Of a stretch of 64,000 bases of DNA, positions 12,484-63,765 are shown piece by piece. The stretch spans positions 7,639,426 through 7,703,425 of the forward strand of contig JAJEKV010000036.1 of NCBI GenBank assembly GCA_021234155.1, written 5' to 3'. This DNA comes from Isoetes taiwanensis. Its lineage: Eukaryota > Streptophyta > Lycopodiopsida > Isoetales > Isoetaceae. The notes below the pieces were generated by a model that worked only from the letters and a program-made list of their open reading frames with translations, searched no databases and was not told the origin of the DNA. A program made the position numbers and the translations under genes. Numbering within the stretch: the first letter of the stretch is position 1; every line of letters starts with the position of its first letter.

Positions 12484-12555
12484 GGGCCGGTAGCTCAGTG
12501 TTAGAGTACTTGGCTTGCAAGCAAGAGGTCCTAGGTTCGATCCTCAGCCTGTCCA
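12484..12555 (+). mobile_element. tRNA-Ala-derived SINE head (or tRNA pseudogene)
   Basis: The 72 bases fold as a tRNA. The acceptor arms at 12484-12490 and 12548-12554 pair with one mismatch and one G-T. There is a D-arm GCTC..GAGT, a loop CTTGCAA with anticodon TGC (Ala) at 12516-12518, and a T-loop TTCGATC. An A-box-like GGTAGCTCAG and a B-box GGTTCGATCC are present. Stem mismatches (one in the anticodon stem, one plus a G-T in the T stem) argue against a working tRNA and for a tRNA-derived SINE. Confidence 0.6.
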
Positions 12556-20138: not shown

Positions 20139-20969
20139 TCAGACCTCCCACTTAGCGTTCGGCACCGCTAAAGGTTCCAATGCTCCTGGAATTCGAAGTT
20201 GCTCTGCCTTCGTCTGCTGACACAGCTGACACTCTTTGATGTATCGAGCTACCTGCTTCTTCATTCCTGGCCAATAATAGCTGCTGCGCACTTTGAAATA
20301 TGTCTTCATAAATCCTGCGTGGCTAGCTATTGGACTGTTGTGGGTGTCGTGGAGAATCAACTTCCTCACCCCTGATGATTCAGGCACACACAACTTGTTC
20401 TTATGGTACAAAAGGTTACCTTCCTTCTTAAAATTCTTGAAGGTTTCCCTCTCCTTATCTGTTCTTGCCTCCTTGCACAAGCTCGCCCATACTTCCTTGA
20501 AGTCTGCATCTGTCGGCAAGGTTTCTTCGATCTTCTTTCCGAAGTCCCTGGTGAGCATCGAAATTGCATTGCAGTGAACTCTTGTTATCAAAGGATGCCT
20601 TGAAAGTGCATCTGCTACCACATTGAGCTTCCCCCACTTATAAACTATATCAAAGTCATATTCTTCGAGGAACTCCATCCACCTTCGCTGCCTCAGGTTG
20701 AGATGTGGTTGCGTGAGCACATATTGGAGACTCTGATGATCCGTGTCCAATTGGAACTTCCTCCCCAACAGGTAGTGCCTCCAAATTCTTAGCGCCCTGA
20801 CAACTGCAAGCAACTCTTGATCGTGCGTCGGGTAGCGCGTTTCGGCATCGTTCATCTTCCTGGAATCGTAAGCTACTACCCGCTCTTCCTGCATGAGCAC
20901 TGCACCTGTGGATATCTTACTTGCGTCTGTCGCCACAAGCTTGTCCTTCTCTGGGTCTGGCAGGGTCAA
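20139..20969 (-). pseudogene. RNase H and integrase zinc head of gypsy pol
   Basis: The RNase H block shows [44 protein letters not shown] and VADALSRHP, the usual gypsy RNase H landmarks. It is followed by an integrase HHCC finger (HDTHNSPIASHAGF, then CQLCQQTK). The frame ends at once after the residues WEV, where the DDE core should begin, so integrase is truncated. This block is one base out of frame with RT because of a six-G run at 20973-20978 (plus strand), where one extra base would explain the shift. Confidence 0.9.
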
Positions 20970-21777
20970 GACGGGGGGTGGTTGTCAAAGCTTCCTTCAA
21001 CAATTCAAAACCTGCTTGGGCTTTCTTGTGCCAATGATCCGCCCAATCCTTCACTTTTTCCACCCTCGTCAAATCTGTTAGCGGGGCCGCTATCTTTGCA
21101 AAGTTCTTCACAAACTTCCTGTAGTACCCTGCTAGGCCAAGAAAGCTTCTGACCTCATGGACATTCTTTGGTGCCGGCCACTGTATGACTGCTTCAATCT
21201 TGGCAGGATCCGTCGAAATTCCTTCTGCTGAAATCACATGACCCAGGTAATCCACCCTCTCTGTAGTGAAGTGGCACTTCGACAACTTGGCGTATAACTG
21301 GTGCCTCCTTAGTTTCTCGAGCACTCTCCTTAGGTGTTGTACGTGTTCTTCCAGGGATCTGCTATACACCAGAATATCGTCAAAGAATACTATCACAAAC
21401 GTATCCAAGAACTCCCTGAAGATGTCATTCATGAGCCTCATGAATGTTGCTGGGGCATTTGATAAACCAAATGGCATTACTGTGAACTCGTAATGCCCAT
21501 ACCTAGTCCTGAAAGTCATTTTGTGGATGTCTTCTTCCTTGATCCTGATTTGATGGTACCCCAACCTCAGGTCTATTTTGGAGAAGACTTTTGCCCCTTG
21601 GAGCTGATCCATCAAGTCATCCGATCTGGGGAGCGCATACTTATTCTTGATGGTGTGCTTATTCAACTGCCTGTAATCTATGCACATCCTCAAGCTGCCA
21701 TCCTTCTTCTTCACAAAAAGAATGGGTGCTCCAAATGGTGAGACGCTAGGTCTAATGAACCCTAGGTCAAGTAGCTC
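20917..21777 (-). pseudogene. Reverse transcriptase of gypsy pol
   Basis: The RT landmarks are in order: [54 protein letters not shown], the catalytic [16 protein letters not shown], and the connection [14 protein letters not shown]. The catalytic Asp pair is intact. An in-frame TAG (21778-21780) separates it from the protease ORF, with ELLDLGFI and [10 protein letters not shown] read directly after the stop. The end runs into a frameshift before RNase H. Function would need both breaks undone, so this copy is inactive. Confidence 0.92.
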
Positions 21778-22701
21778 CTACAATTGCTTCTTCAACTCTG
21801 TCAGCTCTTGCGTCGTCATTCTGTATGGGGCATTGCTCGTCGGCTTCGTACCTGGTTCGAGTGCTATCTCACACTCGACTCCCCTGTAAGGTGGAAGCTG
21901 CTTGATCTCATCTGGAAAGAGATCGTGGAACTCTGTGATCAACTTAGCTATTTGCTTGGGCAACTTGCTGAGCACCTTATCTTCCTTGCTTTCTTCTGAC
22001 TCGGGCTCTTCGAGCTGAAGCTTGAAGATGTATGCTACCTGCTCGCTCTTTATGCACTTGAGCAGCCGCTTACTAGACATACACTGCATGATGGGGACAA
22101 CTTCTTTACCTGTGATCTCTATGATCTTTCCGTTGGCTACTGTGAGGGTCACCTTCCGCTTTCCACAATCAATGAGGGCTCCTGCTGGACCAAGATACTC
22201 CATTCCAATGATTAAATCATACTTTCCAATATTCATTACTTCTGCCCCCATCTGGATGTTGATTCCTGGCAAATCAATGTCGAAGTTTATCCTTTTGCCT
22301 GCCGTGTGCCTTACTCCCCCGTTTGCTAACACCACGGGTCTCGGCTTTGACTTCAACGGTTTCAGCTTCAACATCTCAACCATTCTTGGGGATGCAAAGT
22401 TGTGGCTACTTCTGGAGTCTATCAGGATTATGAATGACTTGGCCTTGGCCTTCCCTATTGTGGAGATTACCTGATACTGATTTTCTGCTTGTTCTGTATC
22501 TATGGCAACAAAAATGTGATACTCACCCTGAATGAAGTCGCGTGCTGGCTCGCCGTCGTCGTCAGATGGAGTGTCCCATTCACCCAACTCCGCTAATGCT
22601 GCACTCATGACGAAGGGGCAGTTCACTGTTCTGTGGCCCGGCTGGAAGCACCTGAAGCAAAGTTGTTTCTCTATGCACTCCTGCCTCTTCTCCTTGGGCA
22701 T
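21778..22701 (-). pseudogene. Zinc knuckle and aspartic protease of gypsy element
   Basis: The first ATG is at 22701, but the frame is open upstream of it as far as the end of the TATA box, reading ASYKLQA. A CCHC zinc knuckle (CFRCFQPGHRTVNC) is followed by an acidic linker and a retropepsin-like domain. The active-site loop reads LIDSRSSHNF where D-S/T-G is expected, so Gly is replaced by Arg. Further landmarks are YDLIIGMEYL and the pre-RT linker ending in TTQELTELKKQL, then TAG. No capsid-type gag domain precedes the knuckle. Confidence 0.85.
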
Positions 22702-22741
22702 TGCTTGCAACTTGTAGGATGCTAAGTGAGAAATGGGGTCC

Positions 22742-22749
22742 TATTTATA
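22742..22749 (-). promoter_or_regulatory. TATA box upstream of zinc-knuckle/pol ORF
   Basis: The minus strand reads CCTTGTCTATAAATAGGACC. The TATAAATA lies about 40 bases before the ATG at 22701, and the upstream side carries two 67-bp hairpins. A near-identical arrangement precedes the H3-like ORF. An internal pol II promoter is unusual for an LTR element. Confidence 0.5.
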
Positions 22750-22931
22750 GACAAGGGAAAAACCCTAATTTTTGGGTGACTTAGAAAACTCTTGAGGTTG
22801 GGCAAATCTGACCTATCTTGAGGTTCAAATGGGGATTGGAAGGCTAATTTGAGGGTTTAAGCATGACTAGGACTATCTAATGAACCTATTGCAATAAACT
22901 AGAGGTGGCATGTTGGAGAAATTGCTAGAAG

Positions 22932-22998
22932 GTCTCACGGTGTGCGCCAGGAAGCAAAACCAAAATTTGGTTTTTGGTTTGGGCGCATACCGTGAGAC
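22932..22998. repeat. 67-bp nested hairpin, copy 1
   Basis: The outer arms GTCTCACGGTGTGCGCC and GGGCGCATACCGTGAGAC pair with a single G-T. The interior holds a second palindrome, AAAACCAAA/TTTGGTTTT. It differs from copy 2 by one base. It lies upstream of the pol-side TATA box. Confidence 0.92.
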
Positions 22999-23134
22999 AT
23001 TGGCCCTGATTCGATCCAGACTTATCTAATTAAAGTAAACTAAAGGTCAAAACATGATAATCTCATCGAGATATTCAAGATTGACCCCTTACTTGGCCGA
23101 TTTGGAAACGCTTTGGGCTAGTTTGGGCATGAAG

Positions 23135-23201
23135 GTCTCACGGTGTGCGCCAGGAAGCAAAACCAAAATTTGGTTTTTGGTCTGGGCGCATACCGTGAGA
23201 C
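23135..23201. repeat. 67-bp nested hairpin, copy 2
   Basis: This has the same length and arms as copy 1, 203 bases away. The flanks are partly shared (GAAG before, ATTGG after), so the pair looks like a duplicated unit between the H3-like ORF and the zinc-knuckle ORF. Confidence 0.92.
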
Positions 23202-23410
23202 ATTGGGCACTGTTTGGCCTAGAAATGTCCAAATTTACTAAAACAAAGGGCAATTCTTCCTAATTCGACTTAATTAACACCAATAATGCACTTATAACTT
23301 ACAACAAAACACTTTGTATTAAACAAAATTTTATCATTTACAAAATTTACTGGGGTTCTCCCTTAATGTAGCTGGCAAGTTGCATGTCTTTCTTCATTAA
23401 GGTTACCCTC

Positions 23411-24620
23411 TTAGCATGTACGATCAGGTTTGGTAGTCGAATCTTCAAAGTCTTTGTACCGGCTTCGCTTTCGTTGCTTCTGTAATGCCAGCAGCATCTC
23501 ATCCATTACCCTCATGTCGGAGCTGTACTCTCGTATAACTTCTCTCACCAATCGGGCGAACGGTGCACGGGGAATAAGGAAGCCGAAGCTGCGCTGAAAA
23601 TGCCTAATCTTCCGTAGTGCTCGTTTCTGGCTGGAGTTGGCTTTCCTTTTTGCTGGCTTCTTTGGAGGAACCGGCTTCTCTGGCGGCGGCTTGAGCGTCT
23701 GCTTCTTGGATGGCCGTCCACCTTCTACAAAAGTTACCTTGTTCTCCTGATAGTAGGAGTTGTAAGCCTCCCACTTCTTCATGAACTCTTTGTGCTCCCT
23801 TAGCTTCTTCTGGTAGACCCTAATAGGGTCTATCACGTAAGATTCCCGGGCAGGTCGCGGCGGTTTCTTCCTATCCCAAGTCGGGTATGGCGGGGGTATC
23901 TGCACCTGCTCTGGCTGCTCCGGGTCTCCCTGCTCTTCACCTGGGGGTTTGGAGGAACTCCCACCTTCAAGGTTAGGATTGAAGTCTTCATCATCCGAAT
24001 TCGTCGGCCCGAGGGGCTTTGTTTCAATGCGAGCGCTCTTCGATGACGATCTTCGTCCTCGGAGTCTTCTTAATTCTTCTTTTGGGCTGCTCCACGTTCT
24101 TGCCCTTGAGCTTCTTCTTCTCTTCGGCCTCCTTGGCCTCCTTTTCCTCCCTCTTTCTCTTCTTGTCGGCCTTCTTCTTCTCTCGGCGCCGCTCCTTTGC
24201 CTCGTGCTTTCGAATCCAGGCCGCGAGTTCTTCCTCGAGTTAAAACCGGTCGGCTCCCTCATTCTTAAATCCGCCTTTGCCTCCTGCTCTCGCTCGGCCT
24301 TATCTTGCTTCTCCTTCTCTATCTGCTCGAGTACTCTCTGCATTTCGTCGTCGTCGCCCTCTATTTCCTCGAGCTCTTCTGTCGAGGCCTCCGAGTGCAC
24401 GTCCTCTTGGTCTACCTGCTGGTCTATCTCCTGGTCGATGATGTCGGCCAGGTTATCTTGTGCTCCCTGCTGGGATCCCTCCCCGTTGTGCTCATCTGAA
24501 ACTTGAGGAGGGCTGGTCCTGGTCTTCTCTCGCAAGAAGACGTTCCCAAAGCATCTGCTGGAGCTGGGCGCTGGCCGTTCCGTCTCCTCGAGGAACTCGA
24601 GCAGTCTGTTTGGTTCTAGC
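23411..24620 (-). pseudogene. Retroelement ORF with histone H3 tail and H3-like histone-fold segment, broken
   Basis: The reading starts at 24620 with ARTKQTAR (24597-24620), the exact first eight residues of mature histone H3. The base triplet before it is ATA where ATG is expected. Then follow an acidic Gln/Glu-rich part, a Lys/Glu-rich coil (about 24239-24018, best in the same frame as the tail), a Pro-rich linker, a basic stretch PPKKPAKRKANSSQKR, and a histone-fold-like piece at 23620-23480 (ALRKIRHFQRSFGFLIPRAP, then FARLVREV, ending MLLALQ). By eye about 21 of 47 positions equal canonical H3 alphaN-alpha1 up to the start of alpha2. IRHFQ and LIP resemble CENH3. The rest of the H3 fold is absent. 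Three frame changes (near 24505, 24240 and 24015) plus the lost start make this copy non-functional. Alternatively it is an aberrant gag with a captured H3 tail. Confidence 0.72.
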
Positions 24621-24726
24621 TATATCTTACGATTCGTCGATCGGAGGTCGGGCGCCCAAAAATCGTCTCAAAAAATGGGACCAAATTTCTAAACAGGAAG
24701 TCTACAATTGAGGGGGGGTCTAGGTC

Positions 24727-24734: not shown

Positions 24735-24836
24735 GTTTGGCCAATTTTAGGTCAAATTCTAAGTTACTCTTTTGGATGTGCCAAGGCACCTATTAACCTA
24801 TGACATATACTTACTTCAGACTTTTCTAATCCATTG

Positions 24837-24903
24837 GTCTCACGGTGTGCGCTGGGAGGCAAAACCAAAAGTTGGTTTTGGGTCAGGGCGCATACCGTGA
24901 GAC
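24837..24903. repeat. 67-bp nested hairpin, copy 3
   Basis: The outer arms are GTCTCACGGTGTGCGC.. and ..GCGCATACCGTGAGAC, with interior AAAACCAAA/GTTGGTTTT. It has the same 67-base length as copies 1, 2 and 4 and lies in the leader between the LTR and the H3-like ORF. Confidence 0.9.
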
Positions 24904-25047
24904 ATTTGGCATTTTTGACTAAATTATATGATTTCTAGGTATATCCTTAGGGGTATAACATACAGATCTGACTAATTCTTACCTCAAAACTCAATTTAGC
25001 ATGTTAGTTTGTTAAAATTCATCATGTTTCAAGGTGATTATGGCCAT

Positions 25048-25114
25048 GTCTCACGGTGTGCGCTGGGAGTCAAAACCAAATTTTGGTTTTTGGCCTGGGC
25101 GCATACGGTGAGAC
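25048..25114. repeat. 67-bp nested hairpin, copy 4
   Basis: It lies 211 bases from copy 3. The right arm reads GCATACGGTGAGAC, one change from the others, which weakens one pair. The interior palindrome AAAACCAAA/TTTGGTTTT is kept. Confidence 0.9.
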
Positions 25115-25306
25115 ATTGCTACTTTTGGTCAAAATTTATTCAACTTTTTAGTTTTCTTAGTTTTCAATTCTCCTAACTGTTATTAGCTTAGCATATACTA
25201 CAAAAATGAGAAAAAAATTTCCCACTTTTTCGAGGTTTGAGGGTCCTACTAAGTTAGTACTACTGGGAGCATGGTCAGTGTTTTGCTCTTGGTCACCAAG
25301 AACATA

Positions 25307-25318
25307 GCTCTGATACCA
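25307..25318 (-). promoter_or_regulatory. Primer binding site (initiator tRNA-Met type)
   Basis: The minus strand reads TGGTATCAGAGC, the standard plant LTR-retrotransposon primer site, one base inside the LTR end at 25320. This fixes both the orientation and the LTR boundary. Confidence 0.93.
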
Positions 25319-25319
25319 C

Positions 25320-26863
25320 TGTGACGTCCCCTACTCATATACAGTGCACTCACCATATACAAACAGGAGTTCATCCCCCATACCAGCTCCATACTGATAC
25401 AGGGCCCTCCACGTATCACTGCAACCTCGATGAGTTCCAGTGGGAAGAATGAAGGGGCTAGCTGCGGAAGCGTAAACATACATGTCAGTATACAACAACA
25501 ACATCACATAACCATCTCGAAGGATGGCTCATTACATATCTGCATAGACAAAGATCAGCACATCACATATGGAGGCCCTACCCAGGGCTCAGACTCGAAG
25601 GGGATGACTGACGGCTTGGGTCTCCAGAGGTCATAGCGGGCATGAAATTCATGGCAATGGATTTTTTCTTTGGCATAAGAACATGGCTTAGGGTAGTCCA
25701 CTCCATCCGCCCCTCCTGTGCACACTTTGCAGAGTAGGTTGAAAAGTGTTGGGACCTGACTGTAGCCCTCCGGATGCATAGCCCAAGGGGCTATTCCTGG
25801 GTTGCATCTCCCCAGTTCCGATGGGGCAGGTAGGGATCACTCCCACCAGAGATCTACATGCTGACTCAAGGTGACTAGAGGGCCACCGCCTGTACTCGAC
25901 TTGAACTCCATGGAAGGTGTCCACCACTCCAAGAGTGTCGAACCCATGCAAAGCCCTCACGCAGTGGCAGAGCATTGGGTCTAGTGCACAATGGTCCTCG
26001 ATAGGCCTTACTACCAGAGGGACGTGATCATGAGTCAGGACATGAACCTCCTTGTAAGCCAGTCTGGCCCCTTCACCCACAACCAGGTGTGGTTCTTGTA
26101 CACAGGCCGAATTTACAGTGTGCTAAAGATGCTAGCTAGGAGCATCAACTACCAGGCTTTAAGATCTCTACCCACCCTTCCCAATACAATGAGTTCACAG
26201 AGATACATCATCCATACATATCACAGAAGAACTAAAGAACAAGATCTAGTCTAAATCACAGAGTTAGGTTCTTTAGTTAGGGCTCAATATCTAGGGATCT
26301 AGATGGCTGCTATGGGCAATTTAATAGGCTAAACCTACTTATTCAATGACTGGGAGACGGTTTAGACTGTTAAATTGACAAAATACCTGATCCTTGGCTC
26401 GCTCCTCCTGCTCTAAACTCGACCATGCTGTTGAACTGCTAGAAAGGGGAAAACTGATGAGCTAGATCGCTCAGACAGAGTTTGGGAGGTGGGTTTGGCT
26501 CCTGGAGCAAGCAAAACAGAGACCTAGAATGCTATGGACGAAAATAGCAAGTTAGGGTTTCCTTTCCCTAAATAGACAAAGGGTTAGGGCTAGGGTTTCC
26601 CATTATCCCTTTAAGCATGTGGGATAATTGGGTATGGCCCACTTGCCTTTATTAGCTAGGTGGCATAAAGTGTCCACATGGGTAGATAAATGTGCACATG
26701 GGTAAATGTGCACATAAATAAATGCACACACCTTGCAAGTTGCCCCCTAGGGTGCTACTTGCTTGGCTACACGTCGGCGTACACGTCAGTCGGGATGGCG
26801 TGTACGCGTGACGAGGCAGTACAATATACGTCCTGGGACCGTATACTGTGCTGGAACGTCACA
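25320..26863 (-). repeat. 5' LTR of the gypsy element
   Basis: The 1,544-bp segment is bounded by TGTGACGT at 25320-25327 and ACGTCACA at 26856-26863, a perfect 8-base inverted terminus of the TG..CA type. The inner edge abuts the primer site. A TCTATTTAGGG stretch preceded by CCTTTG (minus strand, near 26565-26585) resembles the sequence around the internal TATA boxes and may be the LTR promoter. Open frames inside the LTR (for example 25688-26080) lack any known motif and are taken as chance. The partner LTR is missing, so no target duplication can be checked. Confidence 0.85.
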
Positions 26864-37338: not shown

Positions 37339-37559
37339 GGCTGGGTTCACATGAACCATTATTTAACGTTGCCACGTCATCAAAAATACCCTCACGACGG
37401 TCGACGAGGGTCAGGTGTTCACATGTGATTCTTGTTTTCTTCGATGGTAGGAAGGGTCTAAAAGGGGTTTTGCAACCGGTTTCTTCACGGATTGACATGG
37501 AGGATGAATAAACGCTTGTGTAGTCCTGATTTTCTTCACCGATATCACCGATATCAGAG

Positions 37560-38864
37560 ATGGAGAATGAACAAATGGTGATTTTGATTGCAGGTGAGAT
37601 TCTTGCACACATTAGACGAAGAAGACATGCTCTGTTCACTAGATTTTATAGAAGGTTGCAAAGATTGAGAAGAGTTAGGTCTTTGCTCCAATGTGCACAT
37701 ATGCTGCCTTTGTTTTCAGGGAGTGCAAGCATCCTGTTGACATCAGAGCTCGTTCGAAGGCTTGACTATAATTCATCTGGTTGGTATATTCGTCCTAGAT
37801 CTTTGCATTTTTGGCATCATTGGATACATGAGGTGGATTTGGGGGATGTAAATCAATACCCAGAATTATTTCGAATGGATGCAGCTTGCTTTTGTGCAAT
37901 ATGTGATCGCGTAGCCCATTTGATGCAAACAAATCCACCACAAGGATTGAGAAACATTCCTAACAGGTGGACTCCCCCTGCAAAACAAGTAGCAGTAGCA
38001 TTGAATAGGTATGCATCAGGTTCTTCTTTGCTACAGGTAAGTACAACATTTGGTGTTGGGAGGTCAACTGTTTTGAAATATTGTTTGAAGTTTGTAGAAG
38101 CAGTAATTCTTACTATGGGAAGTTTAATAGGATGGCCAGATAATTTAGAGGGAATAAAGTCAGGATTTGAAAGGTATAGGTGTTTCCCAAACTGTATTGG
38201 AACTATTGATGTCACACACCTCAAGTTTCATCTTCCTGGAAATGCTGCAGCTCCAGACTACTATGATAAGGACAAGAATTATAGTATAGGAATGCAAGCT
38301 GTTGTATCCATGGAAGGAAAGTTTTTAGATGTGTCAGTGGGATTCCCGGGAAGTAACAATGATTTGAACATCTTGAGGATGTCTTCTTTGTATCAAAGAG
38401 TGCAAGGTGGTGAGCTATTTCAGGGTGCAGCTGTTAAAAGAGGAGATTTTTACTTCCCTGAATACCTATTGGGTGATGGAGGGTACCAAGACTTGCCATG
38501 GATGGTTATTCCTTTTCCCGGAGAAAGAGAAAATTTACCAAATGAAAAGAAAAACTTCAACTACTGGTTGTGCTCTTGTAGGATGATGACTGAGCGTGTT
38601 TTTGGCAATTGGAAGACGAAATGGAGGTATTTCCTGGGTATCATTGAGACAGAAAATGTAGCTCAAATTTCTAGAGCTGCATTTGCGTTTACATGTATTC
38701 ATAATTTTCTTCTTGAAAGAGGTTACTTGGTTATTCAGCCAATTGAAGGTGAAAGTGTGGAAAGCATTAGTAGACCAGTGCGCGGGAGGCCATCATCGGA
38801 CTCAATCCAGGCTCTCAAACTTCGAAATGATTTATGTATGTACTTGAATTCATTAGAGGAGTGA
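37560..38864 (+). CDS. PIF/Harbinger transposase (HARBI1-like, DDE_Tnp_4)
   Basis: A 434-residue single-exon nuclease that would cut and join the element at TAA/TTA-type targets in the nucleus. The N-terminus is Arg-rich. A helix-turn-helix lies at about residues 157-178 (LLQVSTTFGVGRSTVLKYCL). The catalytic triad is visible: Asp217 in GTIDVTHLKF, Asp306 in LLGDGGYQDL and Glu345 in MTERVFGNWK. The conserved GFPGSNNDL also fits the family. The ATG at 37560 is the first in frame. It lies 221 bases inside the left terminus, and the SANT/MYB partner lies convergent at 42371-43470. The length is normal for the family and no break is seen. Confidence 0.95.
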   Translation: MENEQMVILIAGEILAHIRRRRHALFTRFYRRLQRLRRVRSLLQCAHMLPLFSGSASILLTSELVRRLDYNSSGWYIRPRSLHFWHHWIHEVDLGDVNQYPELFRMDAACFCAICDRVAHLMQTNPPQGLRNIPNRWTPPAKQVAVALNRYASGSSLLQVSTTFGVGRSTVLKYCLKFVEAVILTMGSLIGWPDNLEGIKSGFERYRCFPNCIGTIDVTHLKFHLPGNAAAPDYYDKDKNYSIGMQAVVSMEGKFLDVSVGFPGSNNDLNILRMSSLYQRVQGGELFQGAAVKRGDFYFPEYLLGDGGYQDLPWMVIPFPGERENLPNEKKNFNYWLCSCRMMTERVFGNWKTKWRYFLGIIETENVAQISRAAFAFTCIHNFLLERGYLVIQPIEGESVESISRPVRGRPSSDSIQALKLRNDLCMYLNSLEE

Positions 38865-45409: not shown

Positions 45410-46892
45410 CTAAGCTTGCATAGTCCGAAAGGACGTCCTAGCAAGCCTCTCCAATGCATTCAAATGCTTTATGAGCGTGGCCCTCATCAGATTCATGTGG
45501 CCTCGAAAGACCCTGCGCTGCCTGAGCGATACCTTCAGATCATCCATGTCCAAAGAATGCAAGGCTTCATCAAGGCGCTGCAAGGTATTCCCTAGAGCTG
45601 TCTTCGACTCACGAATGGACATCATCGTCTCTTTAGCAAGCAACTCCACATCCACATGCAAATGAACACACTCTGAGCTGCCAGCAGCACCAACATGCCC
45701 ATCTGGAACGCGCTCTTCATCGGAGTCCGTGTCAAGATTCACTAGTGGGCTGAAAATTGCATTTGCATCTGCCACTCCTTCACGCTTATCCAACTCCATA
45801 CGACCTCCTACAAGAAAGAACAAATATATACATAAGCACCAAGTTCCAGAACCAGCTACATAGCAGCGAAGGTGCTATCCTCCACACCCACGGGAACAAA
45901 GTCATCCCATGGCCTTGGATTCTGCACATCTACAGCCTGTGGACAGCCCACTCCATCATCCAACTCTTCATCACTATCCATGTCACAATCATTCCCCTCA
46001 CCAAGATGCACATTAGCATGAGCATCCCAATAACGTCTTCTCCCCTTACCAATTCGCTCAATGGGAACAATTCCGGGAGGCAGACCAAACAACACATTCC
46101 TTACATCACTATGGCACGCATGCGCAGGATCTAAAGTTATTCTCCAAGCAGCTTCGACACGGTGCTGGGAAATGAAGGCTGTGTTTGTTGGTAACACCCA
46201 TGATCCACTAAAAACAAACTTCTCGGTTTTAAGCATTCTGCAGATGGTTTGAACAAGGGAGGCACTGACGTGCCTACGGCCATGGTACATATGGAAATGC
46301 TTGGCCTTAGCAAACAAGTTACGGTTATCAAGAGTTACGCAGTTCTTAATGTCTCCAGCCCCATAGAGAGCATAGAGATTCTTCCCCCGTTCAATCTGGT
46401 CTGCTGTAACATTCTTCATATGGTGCCTATGATGCACCTTACCAAAATCCTTGAGGCAGTAGCCTATCATGCCCCTCGCGATGCTGCATTTTCAGATCTT
46501 TGAGGGCCTTGCACAAGATAACACCGCCCAAATAGGTTTATGGGTATCCCATCCCGGACTCTTCTTCACCTGACGTTGGCGTTGAATGGATTTGTCATAG
46601 CCATTCTAAACACCGCCTGAACATGGAGATGATCCAGGTTGGAGCCCCTCTCCAAGCTCACAACACCTCCCAAGCACTCAGACTCTAGAAAGCCACAAAC
46701 AAAGCCGGTGTATATCGATTCCCGGACATCCACACCACCCACACTAACAAGTAACACTTTCGAGTCCGGGGAAGAAGGTTCATCTCTAGTACCACTACCA
46801 TGTCTTCTTCTGTGCTTATCACTCTCTTTTCTCACGGCAAAGTTTCTTGCCTCCGGGGAAAACTTGTTTCCCGGACCCCTATCTAAACACAC
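45410..46892 (-). pseudogene. Replitron-like HUH endonuclease transposase, broken
   Basis: Block 46566-46892 has VSVGGVDVRESIYTGFVCGF, then SLERGSN..HLHVQAV; the HLH at 46623-46631 is a HUH metal-binding motif. After a frame change, 45856-46470 starts MIGYCLKDFGK; YCLKD at 46447-46461 is the single-tyrosine motif (Y..K). The rest of this block (NVTADQIERG, LDNRNLFAKAKHF, VSASLVQTICRML, GSWVLP, AAWRITLDP) fits the downstream domain I recall from non-seed-plant Replitron proteins. 45410-45823 adds a Leu-rich coiled C-terminus. An N-terminal tail may extend to 47265. Between the HUH and Tyr motifs the frame shifts at least twice, so the copy is dead. No helicase follows, which argues against Helitron RepHel. 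Confidence 0.65.
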
Positions 46893-49760: not shown

Positions 49761-51113
49761 ATGGATCCGGTCATTCTTGGCATGATTGCCATGCTTTTTC
49801 GGGCTTTGACACTCGGATTTGCATTCCAGAGATACTGTTTGCGGCTATTTGCGATCAACGAGCTCGAAGACCCAATGACCCTGTTCGATGATGAAGTTTT
49901 AGAATATAACAATGGTTTGCTTTTTTGTGCATCTGCAGCTTTAATGGTAGCGGGTTCCAGTAGGGTTAGAAGACCACCAAGAAGATTTTGGATTGCTTCA
50001 AGGCAAAGAACACAGTGGGATAATATCGATAACCATGCTTGGAATTGTCTGCCATCCTTTGAAGACGATATGTGGCACCAATTTTACAGGATGAAAAGGG
50101 CCACATTTGAGAGACTGGTAGGTTTAATTGTGCCTTATCTCGTCAGGCCTGGGATTAAAGTAAGGCATCCTGTTGATCCAAGGAAAGCAGTTGCTATGGT
50201 TCTGTATTTTCTAGCACACGGGGATATGCCCTTACATGTGGGACAGAGATTTTATGTTGGGAAAGCAACAGTGCAAAAATATACCAAGAAAGTCACACTT
50301 GTATTGGTCTCGAAGGCAATGCTGTACAAAAATGGTTTGTTGCTATGCCTACAGGAGCAAGATTAACTCAGTGTATTAAGGAATTCAATGATGCAACTAG
50401 GTTGCCCAATATATATGGTGCAGTTGACCCACATCGTTTTATGGAGGAAACCCAAAAAAAAGGATAATGGGGATGACTATTACAGCAGACATAAGAGGCA
50501 CTCATGTCTCATGCAAGGAATTGTAACACATAGCAGATTGTTTATAAATGTTTGTGTAACAAGAACAGGTTCAGTCCATGATTCCAACCAGTTCAAAAAG
50601 AGCTCTATCTATAATAAAATTGCTTCCAAACAAATTTTGCAAGAACCAGTGGTGACTCTGAGTGGCAGAAAACTGAAGAAGGGGCAGCCTACTGACCAAG
50701 AGGTTCAGATAACTATTCCACCACTACTATTAGGCGATTCAGCTTATTCTAGCAGGCCCTTTCTCCTTAAAGTCTTTCCTCAAAATCAGGGTGCTTATGG
50801 TAAGTTTAACAAAATGATTTGTAGGGGCAGAGTGTGTGTAGAAAATGGATTTGGCATTGTCAAGGAAAAATTCAGAATTCTGAAACACTTGCCCGTACAT
50901 GTTGGCAAAGCCTCCAAGATCATACATGCACGTTGTATTTTTTGGAACTTTTGTATAATGGAAGACAAGGGCTGGGACATGCTGGCAATTGAAGACGATC
51001 CTCCACCAATATATTACTATGAAACAGAAGCCATGGACAGGTCCTTGAAAAAACAAGATGATCAAATGAGGCACGTGTTATTTGAGAATCTGGATGGACA
51101 TGTGATCCTCTGA
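49761..51113 (+). pseudogene. Second PIF/Harbinger transposase, two frameshifts
   Basis: The frame from ATG 49761 gives an N-terminus with FRALTLGF, then a helix-turn-helix (HGDMPLHVGQRFYVGKATVQ). It runs out near 50365. A short middle part in another frame (about 50325-50455) has PNIYGAVDPHRFMEE, which carries the first catalytic Asp. A second shift in an A-run near 50450-50460 returns to the frame 50388-51113, with LLLGDSAYSSRPFLLKVF (second Asp) and CVENGFGIVKEKFRIL (Glu). All DDE landmarks survive, but the protein is split. It is distinct from the 37.6-kb copy. Its termini were not located. Confidence 0.88.
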
Positions 51114-62571: not shown

Positions 62572-63765
62572 CTAATCCTTGTTCTTGGCAGCCAGTTTAG
62601 CAATTTCGAGCAATGTCTCCTTTGTCATTTTACAAATGCTTTGAGTCATTGCAGCCATGGACTCAGCAATTTTCAAGCTGTTGGCAGACCTTATTGTTTC
62701 CAATTCCCTAACCAACTCAATTTTTCATGCACTTTCTTCTTTCAGGAAATCCAATTTCTTTACCTCAGTGTCCCCGAATGTGCTTGCCATTTGTGATATT
62801 CCCATCGCAATGTCCTCATCTATCTGCAACCTGGACTTTTTTCTACTTGTTGGTTTTCCACAAACTCCAGGCTGGTTACATGCAGCTGATCTAGGACTTG
62901 AAGAATCTGTCTGGTTTCCTGTTGGTGTCCTATTTCTTGGAATGTCGGGCATGACTGGACTGCTCGGATTTTCCGTGTGTACATTATTATTTGAATTGGG
63001 TGGAATGCTTTCGAAGTGGTCCTTAAATGCTGCATCTGTTCCAACAGTTTCAAAGAAAGTGTCATTCATGAATGATTCTGAGAAATTTGTATGCAAGCCT
63101 GCAGCCTCAAAAGCTTCATTCCCAAATTCGCCATCGTCACTAGCCCCTGGAATTGGATTATCTGAGGTCACACCATACTTCACCTATTCCATTCTGTCAT
63201 ACCACTGCCAAGCTGAAGGTTCATAACCCGTCTGGCTACAAGCCTCCTTCTCATCTTTGAATTTAGCTTGGAGCTTATCCCATTTGTTCTTTAGTTGTCT
63301 CAGCTCCACTAAACCCCCAACTATAGGCTGCAATTTGGTCATAATTTCCCTCCATTGTGTGTTAGAGAGGTTGAGGGAACCATTAGTTACTAATTTCATC
63401 TCGTTTAAGAGATTGAGGAAAGTGGAGACACCTTGATCTGTCCATTGCACAGGAGACTTTCTATTCTTTGTGTCTATCACTTTTGAATTTTCCTTCTCGT
63501 GCACAACAAGAGCCAAGGCAGCTTCAGATTCAAAAGATTCACTCACAATATCAGAGGAGGCTTGAATTTCGCTCAATACTCGTTTGAATCTCCTTTCCTT
63601 TGGCTGTCTTGGTGATGGAATTGGCTCAGAATTTGTCTCCAAATGCACATCCATGGAGATCTGGCTTGTCATTTTCCAGGTCCTTCTTGGTGCCATTTTT
63701 TCAATCCGAGGAGGTACGAAAGGCTTGCTGCTTGCTGGCAAAGCAGATCAAGAGGCCTTAGACAT
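62572..63765 (-). pseudogene. MYB/SANT-like (PIF/Harbinger partner type) gene with three in-frame stops
   Basis: A single frame runs from ATG 63765 to TAG 62572, interrupted by TGA (63748-63750), TAG (63184-63186) and TGA (62725-62727). The DNA-binding region has QWTDQGVSTFLNLLNEMKLV, WREIMTKLQPIV, LRQLKNKWDKLQAKFKDEKE and CSQTGYEPSAWQW, the trihelix/MYB-SANT-like fold of plant LIMYB-type and Harbinger partner proteins. The C-terminus has RKKSRLQIDEDIAMGISQMA and a coiled helix. All three stops can be explained by C-to-T changes of CGA or CAG. With no frameshift in about 400 codons, decay is recent or the stops lie in undetected introns. It may be the partner of the 49.8-kb transposase. Confidence 0.75.

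Follow-up and report, generated by a model that had tools for sequence, protein, structure and literature searches.

A host-derived histone H3 as the first open reading frame of Ty3/gypsy LTR retrotransposons in Isoetes taiwanensis

Introduction

What is the N-terminus of histone H3 doing upstream of the gag-pol genes of a retrotransposon? The question arises from a 64-kb stretch of the genome of Isoetes taiwanensis (the window, by which the whole stretch is meant here), for which a preliminary description had proposed that a Ty3/gypsy-type element captured a histone gene. The plant, called a fern in that description, is a lycophyte; the proposed capture itself is borne out, since an H3-derived ORF sits between a 5' LTR and gag. 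The element in the window is a degraded Ty3/gypsy LTR retrotransposon, and its first ORF encodes an H3 that derives from the host and has an opened tail. The family to which it belongs is referred to below as family B, and the better-preserved histone-bearing elements that abound in the same genome as family A.

Layout of the window element

On the minus strand, the LTR is followed by a primer site, a leader with two hairpins, the H3 ORF, a segment with two hairpins, and pol domains that reach to 20142 (Table 1). No second copy of the LTR was found within the 64-kb window and the 3' end of the element is missing, so the LTR stands without the confirmation that an LTR pair would give, and its end strings are those of the family-A LTRs. 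The primer site is one that we take to match the initiator tRNA-Met. The element is cut off after the integrase zinc-binding domain, i.e., it is without the integrase core and ends before the position of a chromodomain. An internal loss can be placed more exactly. The family-B segment downstream of the H3 ORF matches to query position 637 (= 22709) in 34 of the 39 non-self copies listed, and the gag homology of the window copy with two family-A elements, c908 and c1068, begins at residue 11 (= 22710); 22709/22710 is therefore read as a deletion junction at which ORF2 and the capsid part of gag were removed.

A palindrome of approximately 70 nt is present in four copies that flank the H3 ORF as one upstream and one downstream pair, and each pair is followed by CTATAAATAG. 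These four flanking hairpins are possibly regulatory or packaging signals. As the same palindromes and the CTATAAATAG box occur on both sides, a small nested H3 element in which the hairpin segments would serve as LTRs was considered first; it was rejected because a 1.54-kb LTR with a primer site lies upstream and the segments are distinct parts flanking the H3 ORF. Elsewhere in the window are two transposases that are presumably PIF/Harbinger-type, and three further features that are included in Table 1.

Table 1. Features of the window element and, in the last five rows, of the remainder of the window
Feature	Position	Strand	Remarks
5' LTR, ends TGTGACGTTCC...GACGTCACA	25320..26863	-	~1.54 kb; exact strings common to family-A LTRs
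Primer binding site GTGGTATCAGAGC	25307..25319	-	directly after LTR; same string in 5/7 family-A elements
Leader hairpin 1, palindrome of ~70 nt	25048..25118	-	RNA fold z=-6.4
Leader hairpin 2	24836..24911	-	RNA fold z=-9.0
ATA + ARTKQTAR codons (H3 N-terminus)	24597..24623	-	ATG at the ATA position in L067 and L069
Longest open frame, broken H3 ORF, 402 aa	23412..24619	-	acidic, Lys/Glu-rich and Pro-rich middle, then H3 alphaN-alpha2
PF00125 match, alphaN to alpha2	23477..23692	-	E=1.5e-9
Alpha3 and stop, other frame	23347..23430	-	PF00125 E=1.6e-5 (just below cut-off); Cse4 E=4.2e-6
Family-B segment after H3 ORF	22709..23345	-	genome copies; ends at junction into gag
Hairpin 3, between H3 ORF and gag-pol	23131..23206	-	RNA fold z=-8.6
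Hairpin 4	22928..23003	-	RNA fold z=-8.3
Gag zinc knuckle (sub-threshold), aspartic protease	21781..22710	-	RVP_2 E=3.9e-9
Reverse transcriptase	20920..21777	-	RVT_1 E=1.3e-39; 76-79% identity to family A
RNase H and integrase zinc-binding domain	20142..20984	-	RT_RNaseH E=2.6e-34; Integrase_H2C2 E=7.2e-20
Transposase	37530..38861	+	DDE_Tnp_4 E=1.9e-26
Transposase	50367..51110	+	DDE_Tnp_4 E=1.2e-19
Myb/SANT-like DNA-binding domain	63187..63747	-	E=6.9e-11
Replitron HUH endonuclease domain, weak match	45859..46491	-	E=1.9e-5, below cut-off
tRNA-Ala (TGC) or tRNA-derived repeat	12484..12555	+	

Tail and fold of histone H3 in the window copy

The H3 N-terminus is exactly where it had been reported: minus-strand codons 24620-24597 spell ARTKQTAR, with ATA (24623-24621) before them, a string expected by chance 4.5e-6 times in the six frames of the window at its base composition. 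An H3-like fold had also been noted near 23480-23620, and here residues 310-381 of the 402-aa frame match PF00125 with 38.6 bits, the cut-off being 26.4 bits; against PDB chains of H3 the same alphaN-alpha2 region gives E=5e-9, with H3 chains ahead of CENP-A among the hits listed. The preliminary description had followed the fold correctly from alphaN to the start of alpha2 and overlooked its end, for alpha3 (HAKRVTLMKKDMQLA; the remaining fold reads HAKRVTLMKKDMQLASYIKGEPQ and a stop) lies in another frame, where it reaches 25.5 bits with PF00125 and has Cse4 chains as its best PDB matches. The PF00125 and PDB matches, together with the low chance expectation of the tail, rule out a chance similarity to H3. 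An ordinary host H3 gene or pseudogene is likewise ruled out; all eight host H3 genes fetched begin with the canonical MARTKQTARKS.

As the tail, alphaN-alpha2 and alpha3 occupy different frames, the window copy is degenerate, and its fold is nevertheless complete. That tail and fold share a single ORF, as had been claimed, is thus wrong for the window copy, with its three frames, and right for its relatives L067 and L069.

Family B is a recurrent unit

Relatives were sought in the whole genome (1,658,258,908 bases in 1110 pieces). The search with the 402-aa frame produced 17,059 first-look candidates, of which 103 were scored (112 rows), so that the counts given are lower bounds; at least 102 non-self matches are present among the 103 scored candidates. 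Two of the three family-B copies fetched are intact, having tail and fold in one frame: L069 is open over 429 aa, from MARTKQTAR to HAERVTLMKKDMHLASHIKGEPY, with an H3-type fold at its end, and L067 over 415 aa, from MARIKQTAR to HAKRVTLMKKDMQLASYIKGEPQ, with a complete fold. The third, L068, has kept ARTKQTTR, has lost the ATG, and has alpha3 out of frame; downstream of its ORF, L070 contains an ORF2 that has diverged from that of family A (match at E=1.9e-7).

The surroundings of the ORF recur as well. An H3 ORF from the 402-aa search stands just before 23 of the 39 listed family-B downstream segments and just after 14 of the 39 listed leader segments, and at least 22 leader/downstream pairs among the segments listed are 0.9-1.4 kb apart. 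The family-B unit of leader, H3 ORF and segment is thus recurrent in the genome. The observations that would have counted against the preliminary description, i.e., a missing histone match, relatives without tail or fold, or a tail outside any conserved frame, were looked for and did not refute it.

The exact ARTKQTAR is limited within family B to the window copy and L069. Residue 9 is V or L, and not Lys, in all four family-B copies (window, L067, L068 and L069). A canonical H3 tail bearing K4, K9, K14, K18, K23 and K27 was not found; a segment of approximately 300 aa opens the tail.

Family A: better-preserved histone-bearing elements

A genome search with PF00125 gave 8705 first-look candidates, of which the best 150 rows were scored, all of them above the cut-off. 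The first 15 of these 150 span the profile from position 2, like host H3, and by hand count 36 of the 150 lie in open frames of at least 400 aa. Nine such loci were examined with 20 kb each, and in seven of them a pair of 1.3-1.6-kb LTRs flanks the H3 ORF. Target duplications of 5 bp are exact in five of the six elements assessed and have one mismatch in the sixth, and the exact primer site GTGGTATCAGAGC is present in five of seven. The LTR-to-LTR length is approximately 13.1-13.3 kb in five of six elements and 16.7 kb in one, with the LTRs of seven pairs diverged by K2P 0.035-0.104. The order is LTR, ORF1 with H3 at its end (PF00125 E ~1e-42), ORF2, a third fragment, gag-pol and LTR. The gag region has a Ty3_capsid match (E=1.4e-16), and gag, PR, RT, RH and IN follow in that order. 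By their LTR pair, target duplications, primer site and gag-PR-RT-RH-IN order, the family-A elements are Ty3/gypsy LTR retrotransposons. The one element scanned for it also has a chromodomain at the C-terminus of its integrase (PF00385, E=3.1e-9), the hallmark of a chromovirus.

Codons for the stretch HAKRVTIM are found at 741 + 685 = 1426 genome sites (reversed control, 0), a figure that counts sites of an 8-residue stretch and not intact ORFs, includes host genes, and misses family B, which reads HAKRVTLM or HAERVTLM. ORF2 lies between the H3 ORF and gag (L021, 3065-4474, minus strand; L023, 2992-4497, minus strand; in family B, L070, 38-598 and 1412-2167, plus strand). It is 45% identical between groups A1 and A2 and has a relative in family B; in the two family-A copies scanned, it gave no Pfam family, and a PDB search gave no match. 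The stretch that separates ORF1 from ORF2 has TATA-like runs in all nine long loci (c908, c1068 and seven others); these runs may act as internal promoters or may be of low complexity.

Selection on the histone

The selection analysis covered eight host H3 genes and the ORF1 of 52 copies, of which 49 are from family A (9 long loci and 40 short) and 3 from family B. Within groups, where choosing family-A copies by top PF00125 rank and long open frame favors conserved H3 and lowers pN, the median dN/dS of the H3 part was 0.015 in A1 (45 pairs), 0.039 in A2 (561), 0.035 in A3 (3) and 0 in A4 (1 pair); it was 0.098 in family B (3 pairs) and 0.011 in host H3 (28 pairs). The comparison between A groups is less exposed to this bias, and there synonymous sites are saturated (pS 0.77-0.95) with a pN of only 0.07-0.15. 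Conservation within ORF1 is highest in its H3 part, both by dN/dS, which is 0.10-0.18 in the N-terminal part of family-A ORF1, and between c908 and c1068, which are 82% identical in H3 (pS saturated), 34% in the N-terminal part of ORF1 and 45% in ORF2. Judged from these substitution patterns, the H3 of family A is under strong purifying selection.

The same two elements are 90% identical in gag, 91% in PR-RT and 93% in RH-IN, with dS 0.8-1.6. Their ORF1-ORF2 part is therefore much older than their gag-pol, which suggests an exchange by recombination; the ORF1-ORF2 cassette appears to move between element backbones (L021/L022 = c908, L023/L024 = c1068).

Over residues 39-135 (alignment numbering), identity to host H3 is 81-89% in the 49 family-A copies and 45-50% in family B. 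All 49 of the former have kept C110, H113, K115, R116, T118, K122, D123, L126, R69, R72 and R83, and 48 have kept R49 and R63, residues that we take to be H3-H3' and DNA contacts; the complete fold, alphaN plus alpha1-alpha3 with the tetramer residues, is likewise present in family A. The three family-B copies retain C110, H113, R116 and T118, with P in place of residue 63 and S in place of residue 79; the fold is complete in L067, that of L069 carries E at 115, and that of L068 is broken in alpha3. Owing to this lower identity and the replacement of several DNA-contact residues, R63 by P and K79 by S, entry into nucleosomes is less sure for family B than for family A.

The N-terminal segments of A1-A4 are homologous to one another (hhalign probability 100). 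The family-B segment is unrelated to them, and one N-terminal domain, or one shared N-terminal function, for both families can therefore not be claimed. A PDB search with the N-terminal domain gave no convincing match (the best, at E=0.15, was a designed protein), it has no Pfam family, and searches of a large protein database and of viral contigs yielded no relative and no lead, respectively. Two A3 copies, L051 and L054, have a K9-like ARKSGS approximately 45-60 residues before the fold, the only two to do so among 14 aligned, and the loss of K9 is thus not universal. That every subfamily has Lys at position 4 is not claimed here: the 33 of 52 copies with a recognized start all have it, a circular count because the start-recognition motifs themselves contain that Lys.

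Comparison with known systems

So far as the open literature reaches, a chromovirus-type element whose captured host gene is a core histone has not been reported. No histone-encoding LTR retrotransposon was found in published open-access articles, the scope of the search, and the word histone is absent from the main text, as far as available, of the I. taiwanensis (PMC8566536) and I. sinensis genome papers. Chromoviruses have the same gag-pol order and integrase chromodomain, and lycophyte members are known from Selaginella; in the accessible portion of the account consulted no histone is described for them, unlike for the Isoetes elements (PMC3350952). A close parallel for the capture comes from Phalaenopsis, where gypsy elements likewise kept and multiplied an extra host-derived ORF, in that case an AlkB-type m6A demethylase acting on RNA and not a histone; the same paper tallied 15 unusual domains across 121 angiosperm genomes, with no histone among those named in its section 12 (PMC9289625).

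Histone H3 itself has been multiplied by mobile elements in fungi, as H3L by the hAT DNA transposons found in Pyrenophora tritici-repentis (PMC3538342) and as H3 by hAT elements of Pseudocercospora (PMC6710886). H3L has tail insertions and is distinct from H3 and CenH3. The carriers are DNA transposons with inverted repeats, whereas in Isoetes they are LTR retrotransposons in which H3, under deep purifying selection, forms the end of a first ORF that begins with a long N-terminal domain; going by the LTRs and gag-pol of the Isoetes elements, an identity with hAT-borne H3L was rejected. Certain DNA viruses also encode a single H3, with a fold 73-89% identical to that of the host and often a longer N-terminal tail, the extensions amounting to tens of residues (53 and 68 in two H3s) versus approximately 300 in Isoetes, and the H4 of a bracovirus is incorporated into the nucleosomes of its host, where it works by means of its tail (PMC9145170). 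The available text of that review does not mention retrotransposons ("retrotranspos" occurs 0 times).

What might the elements do with a histone?

The basis for any proposal is the LTR context, the intact frames, the complete fold, the purifying selection, the retained interface residues and the loss of K9 after ARTKQTAR. Together these suggest that the elements employ their own histone on host chromatin, and we consider it fairly likely, going by the sequences, that ORF1 is a functional H3 that enters chromatin. The ORF1 protein would be translated, pair with host H4 and enter nucleosomes, in which an element-specific protein would occupy the place of the modifiable H3 tail. From such pairing and entry follow the two leading uses, evasion of K9-type marks and tethering to nucleosome assembly: the most probable benefit would be chromatin closed to K9-type silencing marks, or element complexes tied to sites of nucleosome assembly, and the chromodomain integrase of the same element fits both. 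More specifically, the elements may carry their own chromatin, with the element H3 replacing host H3 on unintegrated cDNA, integrated copies or target sites, so that an element-specific domain, K4-like at its start and devoid of K9, forms the nucleosome tail and the host cannot mark this chromatin for silencing. This fuller picture is put forward tentatively, as one that may well prove wrong.

Of the other ways to account for the histone, one is accidental acquisition, with H3 copied along as a functionless passenger of the elements. Stops or frameshifts in the window copy and in many others would be in keeping with this, as would the inactivation of most of the H3 copies of mobile elements in fungi, going by the available text of PMC6710886; yet the dN/dS of 0.015-0.039 in the larger A groups, the low pN at saturated pS between groups, and the stronger conservation of H3 relative to the remaining parts of that ORF make it very improbable. 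Tethering, taken alone as one branch of the preferred explanation, would have ORF1 in the integration complex, its H3 fold engaging H4, chaperones or nucleosomes and bringing new copies to assembly sites. It has a parallel in the chromodomains of some chromoviruses, e.g., MAGGY, which direct integration via H3K9me (PMC3350952, in the part accessible). A chromodomain integrase is present in the same element as ORF1, and the chaperone-side and tetramer residues are kept in all 49 A copies, but ORF1 is separate and far upstream of gag-pol, which leaves tethering by itself a minority possibility.

Giant DNA viruses package with histones, and a histone might similarly condense the cDNA or RNA of the element in its particle, as in some DNA viruses, a role that the Lys- and Arg-rich ORF1 would suit. 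However, only one core histone is encoded and its H4-interface residues are kept, as would be expected of a protein that pairs in the nucleus with the H4 of the host, and packaging is accordingly judged unlikely. A centromeric role, in which family B derives from CENH3 and homes to centromeres, draws on LIPRAPF and RVTLMKKD of the window family, which resemble plant CENH3, and on the best match of alpha3 being Cse4. Against it, alphaN-alpha2 scores H3 chains above CENP-A among the hits listed, and a tree with two CENH3/CENP-A rows, in which long branches meet, does not group family B reliably with them. A lengthened loop 1 is a feature of CENH3/CENP-A, and the alignment with host H3 has no loop-1 insertion; this role, too, seems improbable. 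Both packaging and centromere homing are thus less likely than escape from K9 marking and tethering.

If the use of an element-borne H3 on host chromatin is true, it would constitute a transposon-side answer to histone silencing marks, a main defence against transposons, in which the element supplies the histone. Family A, with more than 1000 HAKRVTIM-coding sites, would offer natural test proteins that combine a nearly canonical fold with an uncharacterised domain where the tail would be. The elements also show that retroelements can shuttle core histones, a possible route to new H3 variants.
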